From Sulfurimonas sp. (lineage in GTDB: Bacteria; Campylobacterota; Campylobacteria; Campylobacterales; Sulfurimonadaceae), in NCBI GenBank assembly GCA_016744115.1, contig JADGEZ010000015.1:1-50296 (forward strand): a stretch of 50,296 nucleotides of DNA, in the 5' to 3' direction. The position numbers were made by a program, and so were the translations under genes. Shown piece after piece: positions 9,055 through 50,296 of the stretch; positions within the stretch are counted from its first letter, which is position 1, and each line of letters opens with the position of its first letter. Under the pieces are notes generated by a model, which saw only the letters and a program-made list of their open reading frames with translations, did not search any database and was not told the origin of the DNA.

Positions 9055-9322
9055 AGACTTCTTGCAAAACTCCTATATGTCTCAGCACTTTATAGAGAGT
9101 TTTAATCAAGGCAAATATTCTCAAGCGTAGCCAAAGCTACGGTTGGGGTTATTTACGCTCAAGTAAAGCTCTCTATAAAGTGTCCTACGGAAGTGATAAG
9201 AAGTGCCAAGCTTGCATAAAAAAATATTTTATCCTTAGCTTAGGCTAGGCATAAAAATTTGTTTTACACAATCTTAGCACTTCTTATCACTCTGAGGCAT
9301 ATAGGAGTTTTGCAAGAAGTCT
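9055..9322. mobile_element. 268-bp MITE-like element with 26-bp terminal inverted repeats
   Basis: Outer arms 9054-9079 and 9298-9323 are perfect 26-bp inverted repeats, extendable to 32 bp with one mismatch. With element ends taken as AGACTT...AAGTCT, it is flanked by AGT on both sides (9052-9054, 9323-9325), a possible 3-bp target duplication. No gene lies inside. Two further 14-bp stems (9086-9099/9169-9182 and 9192-9205/9278-9291) and a small hairpin (9126-9141) sit between the arms. The TTGCAAAA core recalls ends of IS5-group elements, so it may be moved in trans by such a transposase. The right 88 bp recur exactly at 49266-49353. It ends 8 bases beyond the stop of the permease gene. Confidence 0.8.
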
Positions 9323-36477: not shown

Positions 36478-36680
36478 TTATGCTACATTTTCAACATAAT
36501 TCAAATATACATTCATTGGTTTTTTATAATTTAGGGAAGAGTGAAATCTTTTAAAATTATATTTATACATCCAGTTTTTTACTCCTTCTTTTAATTCTTT
36601 AATTTCACTATAGTCACTAACATGAATATTGTTACTTAACTTTCGCACATAGATTCCAATAAATCCATAGACTTAACTTG
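36478..36680 (-). pseudogene. IS3-family transposase (OrfB) C-terminal remnant
   Basis: On the minus strand an open frame reads GIYVRKLSNNIHVSDYSEIK and then ELKEGVKNWMYKYNFKRFHS, SLNYKKPMNVYLNYVENVA and a TAA at 36478-36480. The pattern YNFKRFHSSLNYKKPMNVY is the hallmark end of the IS3/IS150 integrase-type transposase, just after its last catalytic Glu. The rest of the transposase, including the DD residues, is gone and no start is present. It is a dead fragment about 65 codons long. Confidence 0.8.
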
Positions 36681-36689
36681 AATATTAAA

Positions 36690-36710
36690 GCCTATAAATA
36701 GGCACTTTTT
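36690..36710 (+). terminator. hairpin with T-run upstream of the IS4-type transposase
   Basis: GCCTA-TAAA-TAGGC (36690-36703) followed by ACTTTTT. On the plus strand it is a small rho-independent terminator 50 bases before the transposase ATG, the typical place for a structure that shields an IS from outside transcription. It also marks where the IS4-type element begins. Confidence 0.55.
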
Positions 36711-36754
36711 AGTATAATTTTGTTCCAATAACATCATTATAAAAGGCTTATTTT

Positions 36755-37438
36755 ATGGAACTTGCAAATTATATCAATTATGCTATGAAGAGTATATTAA
36801 AGAATCCTATCCTTGAAGTTTTATATGAGATAAATATTTCTAAAATACTTAAACAAAGTAACTTTGTAAAAAGAGATGTAGGCTATCCACCATTTGAGAT
36901 AATTTTACACTTCATTTATATGCTAGTGATGCAAAAGAGACAATCAACTTTTATAAAAAAGATAAAGCCATTACATAAAAAAGGTGAGTATAAGCTCCTC
37001 ATTATTGATGATACAGTTGAAGCTAAACGAGGTAAATTTATAGAAGGAAGTTGTAAATATATTTGGAGTAATAAAGAACATAGAAGTATTAATGCACTCA
37101 ATATTGTATCTCTAAACTATGCAGATTCACATTCTACTTTTCAACTTGACTTTGCTATTAAAATGAATGATAGCAAAAGAAAATCTATATCAGAATTTAC
37201 AACTAAACTTCATCATAGAAGTAATGCGTATCAAAGAAGAAGTGAAATCACTAAAGGCAAAAACACTCTTGCTATTGAGATGCTAGAGAGAGCTTTAGAT
37301 AATGGTGTTGAAGCTGATTATCTGCTTGTAGATAGCTGGTATTCTAAACCAAACTTCATAAAACAAGCGAATGACTTAGGGATGCCAATCATTGCAAGGC
37401 TTCCAAATAATAAACTCATTAGACTTCTTGCAAGTTAG
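36755..37438 (+). pseudogene. IS4-type DDE transposase with internal and C-terminal deletions
   Basis: The 227 residues carry the first catalytic Asp in LLIIDDTVEA (85) and the second in LLVDSWYSKPNF (193), but the third (Glu) region is missing. The protein ends NNKLIRLLAS, where the last codons (AGACTTCTTGCAAGT) are not transposase but the end sequence of the MITE-like element. About 60 residues also seem lost between QKRQSTFIKK and IKPLHKKGEY, where family members carry a helical linker. It cannot be active. The family call is from the D-to-D spacing and IDD/DSW motifs. Confidence 0.75.
37420..37433 (+). repeat. isolated 14-bp end of the MITE-like element
   Basis: TAGACTTCTTGCAA matches the outer end of the element at 9054-9067. 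The rest of the element is not there: the next bases (GTTAGATTTCC) differ. It coincides with the point where the IS4-type transposase loses its homology. It could be a deletion junction using this end as breakpoint, or chance for a 14-mer; its position argues for the former. Confidence 0.55.
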
Positions 37439-37472
37439 ATTTCCTTTAGTCACGGCTTTTTCACACAGTCTA

Positions 37473-37530
37473 TCATTCTGAACTTGATTCAGAATCTAGC
37501 ATAAGATACTAGACCATAAATTGGTATGAA
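37473..37530 (-). repeat. palindromic dispersed repeat, second copy
   Basis: Bases 37473-37505 are identical, inverted, to 21064-21096; the flank up to TTGGTATG (37527) is also similar to 21040-21063. It holds the same TTCTGAA/TTCAGAA stem. It lies just right of the truncated transposase and left of two small genes, as repeats of this type often mark accessory DNA borders. A degenerate third copy may exist at 36346-36375. Confidence 0.75.
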
Positions 37531-37556: not shown

Positions 37557-37829
37557 TTATTTGTCGTAAAGTTTGGCTACCTCTGTCATAGCCGTAACCA
37601 GTTCTTCTCTAGTGTCAAAAACTAAGGTTGTTTTATTTTTCACCTCTTGATTTAATGGCGTAAAATCAAATACTAAAACATAATGCACCAGTTTTACTTT
37701 ACTTGCATTATCCTCCATCCATTCTAAACTCATCTCAGCCACCTCGCCGTACATATCGATAACAGCTGCTGGATACAGTCTTGTAATTTTGGATAAATTA
37801 ATGTCCCCATCTTTTGATTTATATATCAT
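37557..37829 (-). CDS. small protein of unknown function (90 residues)
   Basis: A soluble alpha/beta protein starting MIYKSKDGDINLSKITRLYP, ending with a helix (REELVTAMTEVAKLYDK). No known motif. Its first codons overlap the last 11 bases of the small membrane protein gene upstream, so the pair is translated together. I do not recognise the family. Confidence 0.6.
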   Translation of the reverse strand: MIYKSKDGDINLSKITRLYPAAVIDMYGEVAEMSLEWMEDNASKVKLVHYVLVFDFTPLNQEVKNKTTLVFDTREELVTAMTEVAKLYDK

Positions 37830-49149: not shown

Positions 49150-49251
49150 TTTAAAAATTCCTTTGTGATATTAAATGTATTGCATTGTACTTTAAATCTA
49201 CTAAAAATCGTATTAAGTAATAGGACAGAAATAAATTCATAGCTGATGAGA

Positions 49252-49353
49252 AAATTATATTATCATTAGCTTAGGCTAGGCATAAAAATTTGTTTTACAC
49301 AATCTTAGCACTTCTTATCACTCTGAGGCATATAGGAGTTTTGCAAGAAGTCT
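49252..49353. mobile_element. right half of the MITE-like element
   Basis: Bases 49266-49353 are identical to 9235-9322, with weaker similarity back to 49252. The left half of the element is absent. The element end (AAGTCT) abuts the 94-bp inverted repeat at 49354, so the open frame seen in the left copy is cut here. It is an incomplete, probably fixed copy, or a rearrangement joint. Confidence 0.85.
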
Positions 49354-49447
49354 ATTAAACTTAAGCATATTTAATCTAGTCAAGTTCACATTAAATCTAA
49401 ATTTTTCAATGATTTTAATTTTGAAATTATTTAAGGTCTATTACTTA
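49354..49447 (-). repeat. 94-bp inverted repeat, right copy
   Basis: Exact reverse complement of bases 1-94. Here one side borders the MITE-like element and the other lies in a truncated VapC gene (49431-49499). Thus two breaks meet within 100 bases. Reading on the minus strand, the frame shared with base 11-94 ends inside the element as NRLLAKLLYASE. Confidence 0.9.
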
Positions 49448-49989: not shown

Positions 49990-50296
49990 CTAGTTCCACC
50001 GATTTGTTAAGTTAGCTAACTCTTTGTCAGTTAATCCTGTACTTAGTCTGATTGTTTGTTTATCTACATTTGAGTTTAATAAACTCTCTAGCATGTTTTT
50101 TAGCTTGTCATTTGCTTTTTTTTCAGCTTCTTTTTTCCCTTCAATCTTCCCTTCAATTTTCCCCTCAATCTTTCCTTCAATTTTCCCCTCAATCTTCCCT
50201 TCTTTCTTCCCTTCCTTCTTCCCCTCAATCCTACCAATAACATATGTAGACTCATAAGCACTAGCTTGCTCGTGTAAGGATTTTTGGTATTTGTTA
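49990..50296 (-). CDS. C-terminal part of a second Rpn-family nuclease with EGKI repeats
   Basis: An open minus-strand frame enters from the right edge and stops at a TAG (49990-49992). It reads SLHEQASAYESTYVIGRIEG, then about eight copies of a 4-residue, 12-base unit of the EGKI/EGKK type, a coiled stretch (KKEAEKKANDKLKNMLESLL) and the tail STGLTDKELANLTNRWN. That tail resembles the end of the Rpn protein at 1045 (TGLSIQEVANLTNTRNE), and repeat-rich C-termini are common in this family. The nuclease domain lies outside the window. Confidence 0.75.
   Translation of the reverse strand, partial: NKYQKSLHEQASAYESTYVIGRIEGKKEGKKEGKIEGKIEGKIEGKIEGKIEGKKEAEKKANDKLKNMLESLLNSNVDKQTIRLSTGLTDKELANLTNRWN

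Follow-up and report, generated by a model that had tools for sequence, protein, structure and literature searches.

Positions 37421–37433 of the window (the whole 50,296-nt stretch of DNA analysed here) hold 13 bp, AGACTTCTTGCAA, that are the outer end of a mobile element whose body is absent. This solo end begins at the exact base at which a transposase gene loses its DNA homology to intact relatives (37420|37421), directly after a canonical target for the element. That an element was inserted here, and that its body and the 3′ part of the gene were then lost, is well supported. The fuller reading, in which insertion at ATT was followed by a short-repeat deletion that took out the element body together with the 3′ half of the gene, is considered probable. 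The stub is a remnant rather than a complete element, since no second inverted end with a copy of ATT lies within 3 kb (the closest candidate differs at 4 of 13 positions).

Table 1. Features of the scar, of its host gene and of related elements in the window (positions in the window).
Feature	Position	Strand	Basis
Intact MITE of the same family as the stub, 268 bp	9055..9322	+	AGT on both sides
5′ part of IS4-family insertion sequence (TIR, leader, first half of transposase gene; predicted)	36629..37420	+	blastn to relative L105; NCBIfam IS4_4
Truncated transposase ORF, 227 aa	36755..37438	+	Final codons RLLAS from inserted element end
Junction of internal ~100-bp deletion in transposase gene	36957..36962	+	6-bp direct repeat AAAAGA; overlapping blast segments and L105 sequences
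ATT insertion target, left copy of ANT duplication	37418..37420	+	ATT kept in 14/14 relative rows; ANT pattern of element copies
Solo 13-bp terminal end of MITE/IS5-family element	37421..37433	+	55 exact genome copies; homology break directly before
REP-like repeat unit, many copies in own genome, adjoining scar	37447..37521	+	Other copies without the 37421–37446 stretch
Second MITE family, hosting the 86-bp remnant	49213..49436 (limits approximate)	.	94.5% identity to L170 (55 bp, one side); shared sequence on the opposite side
86-bp one-ended remnant of first MITE	49268..49353	-	AAT on both sides (49265–49267, 49354–49356); inside second MITE

From profile matches, the truncated reading frame is predicted to belong to an IS4-family transposase of the NCBIfam NF049925 type. 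By blastn, the DNA of the insertion sequence, which starts near 36629, aligns with relative L105 in two stretches ending at 37420, one of 334 bp at 86.5% identity and one of 464 bp at 84.9% (798 aligned bp in all). NCBIfam IS4_4 matches the fragment with an E of 2.5e-34 and 118.8 bits, under the cut-off of 250, and its best stretch ends at profile position 241 of 449; with 271 bits, an intact Poseidonibacter ostreae relative passes the same cut-off and reaches position 421, through the break point. The Pfam DDE_5 match on the fragment stops at profile position 212 of 272, so that the DDE catalytic domain is incomplete. The protein terminus reads ...NNKLI-RLLAS, with homology stopping at I222 (codon 37418–37420). 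In 14 of 14 relative rows the sequence continues after ATT with TGG (Trp), and in the window with AGACTTC; two of these rows are one place, and others may represent a single organism with two handles. The first-pass annotation had described the 14-mer TAGACTTCTTGCAA at 37420–37433 as an element end without its element, supplying the last codons of a transposase deprived of its final catalytic region, and both statements hold. A natural origin of the 14-mer in intact transposases was rejected, as none of the 14 rows carries it.

The surroundings of the IS4 copy are a pile of broken insertion sequences. On the minus strand, a fragment at 36478–36648, putatively the C-terminal part of an IS3-type transposase, breaks off where the IS4 copy begins. 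The transposase gene itself also bears an internal deletion (Table 1) that the earlier annotation did not record. The missing IS4 3′ half is absent at the locus. Its sole large counterpart in the same genome, at C71:5018-5535, starts 77 nt beyond the break and abuts a different MITE, and small IS4 pieces persist on contigs C31 and C43. The abutting MITE is of the second family in Table 1 (ends TTAAGTAATAGGGCATAAATAACTTCATAGC; L158:2016-2290, L170:96-225, window 49213–49436).

The exact 13-mer occurs four times in the window, at 9055, 9310 (reverse), 37421 and 49341 (reverse). With one mismatch allowed, 0.20 occurrences are expected in the whole window, and none of 100 shuffles reached four. 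The genome of origin (G000; 74 contigs, 2,054,860 bases) contains 55 exact copies, 24 forward and 31 reverse, and no copy of the reversed-sequence control. The 13-mer is the outer end both of the 268-bp MITE and of an autonomous element with ends AGACTTCTTGCAAAACTCTAAAAG and AGACTTCTTGCAAAACTCATTTTC, of which this genome retains only ~95-bp pieces at contig ends. Copies carry on either side a 3-bp direct repeat with the pattern ANT, found on the outer side at 35 of the 42 surveyed sites that have a partner end. The ATT before the stub fits this duplication; only the left copy is present, and the right copy is not assignable because the right flank of the stub has been lost.

The parent element is assigned to the IS5 family by sequence comparison, because NCBIfam IS5_4 matches the 49-residue C-terminus encoded by a G052 copy of an insertion sequence with these ends (E 6.6e-7), and because a 0.9-kb insertion sequence on the Sulfurospirillum plasmid pSulSP, both reading frames of which match IS5_4, shares the near-identical end AGACATCTTGCAAAACTC. 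A Pfam search with the same 49 residues gave no match. The terminal repeat of the stub is common to an autonomous IS5-family element. ANT is the target duplication of one IS5 subgroup (ISL2). Literature searches on IS5/ISL2, ANT, MITE, imprecise excision, microhomology and Campylobacterota did not return this element family, a result that does not in itself prove it unpublished.

Several variants of the family were observed. In a 151-bp MITE version (L144, L151, L152, L021, L014), the right end comprises only 9 bp, AAGAAGTCT, apparently converted from the internal look-alike GATAAGAAGTGC; of the six copies shown, five have a matching duplication, and L014 reads AAT/ATT. In G041 and G064, 99–137-bp MITEs (L232, L233, L202, L227) combine the same left end with a body of REP-like palindromes; on the right they carry the diverged end ATGAAAGAAGTCT, and their duplications match. 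A link between REP-like repeats and IS5-family transposition is therefore possible. In L230, L231 and L224, two such ends form 20–29-bp hairpins followed by T or A runs near gene ends, and these may now serve as terminators.

All 55 sites in the genome were displayed and classed by inspection. At 52 of them a recognisable MITE or IS body follows; the exceptions are 37421, C21:41240 and C68:88125. The first two are ANT-flanked, and each sits at a break in homology or synteny; the third has the flank CTT and its sequence reads through an open frame, and it is probably a chance match. This display is the genome-wide examination that the first-pass annotation had suggested.

At C21:41240, a 15-bp solo end with an AAT flank coincides exactly with a break in synteny. 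Many relatives align on the aspC promoter side, and in most of them the alignment ends at the solo end. Of 11 relative loci examined, nine continue without a break across this point into cysE, namely L292 and eight of the 10 others, which align to L292 in one piece; the remaining two of the 10 have interruptions of their own. In the present genome cysE follows ~1.5 kb past the solo end; the segment in between contains two ORFs, one of 117 aa and one permease-like, the latter label being a by-eye reading of the sequence. This two-ORF segment (C21:41200-42755, equivalent to L303:1-1555) separates aspC from cysE, which are adjacent genes in relatives, and its right end has no recognisable terminal repeat. 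C21:41240 is a replacement, not a simple loss, and it is a better second case than 49354.

At the latter site, a gene frame had been described as cut by the element end. What lies there is an 86-bp MITE remnant within the non-coding second MITE, with AAT duplicated and both flanks kept. Contig 73 (L170), part of the second MITE family, represents the empty site, with the same surrounding sequence and no insertion. Likewise, the proposal of three occurrences at breakpoints does not survive: among the sites concerned, only 37421 lies at a true homology break, and 9055 and 9310 are the two ends of the intact, AGT-flanked MITE. Nearby, tandem KKEGKIEG-type repeats occupy 50100–50260 in an ORF at the contig end.

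Across 119 genomes searched, the present one included, the 13-mer occurs in 45, and the reversed control gave two hits overall. A survey of 96 sites, drawn among the matches listed and excluding G078 C212, C217 and C261 (contig-end), all G104/G039 sites and several paired ones, was classified with thresholds of our own choice into 42 sites with a partner, 15 sharing body sequence with another locus, four near a contig end and 35 solo. These 35 include the 49354 remnant, L236 (whose partner is more diverged), and L224 and L241 (possibly in hairpin terminators). An ANT flank is present at 19 of the 35, where the background rate is 9% (binomial p 1.2e-11), from which it follows that most ANT-flanked solo sites are true element ends; the 16 with other flanks fit chance coding matches. 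Most of the ANT-flanked solos match the shared terminal repeat for 13–17 bp only. A longer piece is seen at G023:C194, where 22–24 bp of the MITE are kept between two intact flanking genes and the orthologous site in G014 is empty; G014 has ~12 nt at this point that are missing from G023, and the spacer varies among relatives.

On the right of the stub, a REP-like unit (Table 1) begins after 13 nt that have no match above chance. None of the 14 copies of this unit examined is preceded by the 13-mer end. Farther right, the 90-aa gene at 37557–37829 occurs in many relatives; in G036 and G062, which were examined for the pre-deletion state, the window is unmatched to the left of this gene.

It is proposed that an IS5-family/MITE element with ends AGACTTCTTGCAA and an ANT duplication inserted at ATT 37418–37420 in the IS4-family transposase gene. 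A later deletion would have extended from a point 13 bp into the element to some point downstream. The element would thereby have lost its body and far end and the gene its 3′ half, and the 13-bp stub would have come to adjoin unrelated DNA, 13 nt short of the REP-like unit. The likeliest process would be loss between short direct repeats, by slippage or end-joining, proceeding without transposase amid many broken mobile elements. We infer this process at 37433 from other junctions: short direct repeats are present at all three junctions with readable parents, namely AAAAGA (6 bp) within the transposase gene, CTAA (4 bp, common to the MITE body and its lost end) at the inner end of the 49354 remnant, and TAT (3 bp) at G023:C194. 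These 3–6-bp repeats favour ordinary short-repeat deletion over a transposase-driven event. At 37433 itself, the parent sequence beyond the stub is lost and a short repeat is not demonstrable. Two further points weigh against the proposal. Retained ends cluster at 13–17 bp, which is not what random deletion of 150–900-bp elements predicts, although part of this clustering may arise from the recognisability of the shared terminal repeat alone; and at C21:41240 the stub is followed by the 1.5-kb two-gene segment.

The clustering of retained lengths leaves room for a role of the transposase, and the first-pass annotation had suggested element-driven deletions. The positional part of that suggestion stands, as the end coincides to the base with the 3′ loss at an ANT target; action of the transposase is not borne out, the readable junctions looking like short-repeat deletions. 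Abortive excision or one-sided cutting, with destruction of the adjoining DNA and survival of the terminal repeat alone, would account for the recurrence of ANT-flanked 13–17-bp solo ends in several genomes and for the position of both such ends of the present genome at breaks. In classical adjacent deletion, however, the element remains whole, and here its body is gone and 13 bp are kept at the deletion end; together with the direct repeats at junctions of known parentage, this makes a transposase-driven deletion at 37421 unlikely. A more general proposition is likewise rather doubtful, namely that such solo ends recur throughout Campylobacterota as a scar specific to this IS5-family group. 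They would then stem from a failure linked to the transposase, either abortive excision or one-ended insertion, in which DNA on the inner side of the element is deleted or replaced; if true, these 13-mers would mark past deletions and gene replacements.

The stub could instead belong, as its left end, to an element that is harder to recognise and has the downstream REP-like sequence as its body. The REP-like unit does lie 13 nt past the stub, and the G041/G064 elements join the same end to REP-like palindromes and a right end; yet no right end with an ATT copy was found within 3 kb, the intervening 13 nt match nothing above chance, and the IS4 3′ half does not resume downstream, its large piece on C71 having a different start and a different neighbouring MITE. 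This reading is accordingly quite improbable. An assembly artefact is very unlikely: the genome is a 74-contig draft in which many contigs end within the MITE/IS5 repeat family, but they end after 93–99 bp of shared repeat, so that an overlap of 13 bp should not join contigs. Chance matches to the 13-mer do exist, as C68:88125 and the 16 solo sites with non-ANT flanks illustrate, but coincidence is hardly credible for a 13-mer that starts at the exact base of the homology stop, after a canonical target, when 0.20 near-matches are expected per window.

With insertion followed by short-repeat deletion as the preferred reading, the scar provides a base-exact trace of two successive events in a mobile-element graveyard. 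The biology is ordinary genome decay via mobile elements, and the scar is unusually clean. In draft genomes, the 13-bp terminal repeat combined with the right 3-bp flank can locate points of deletion or replacement, as between aspC and cysE.

Among known systems, the host copy resembles IS4-family insertion sequences in its 84.9–86.5% DNA identity to the L105 copy, and differs from them in its ~100-bp internal deletion and in the loss of its 3′ half. The source element shares terminal repeats, a 3-bp ANT duplication and a related transposase C-terminus with IS5-family insertion sequences and MITEs; unlike these, the site at 37421 holds 13 bp of one end only. Truncated MITE copies are also a feature of QMITE2 in Coxiella burnetii. 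A review reports that some QMITE2 copies are shorter by ~40 bases at their 5′ end, and that truncated copies devoid of duplications and terminal repeats look like REPs (PMC10969869). Compared with these QMITE2 truncations, the present scar is of another form: here the end is retained and the body is gone.
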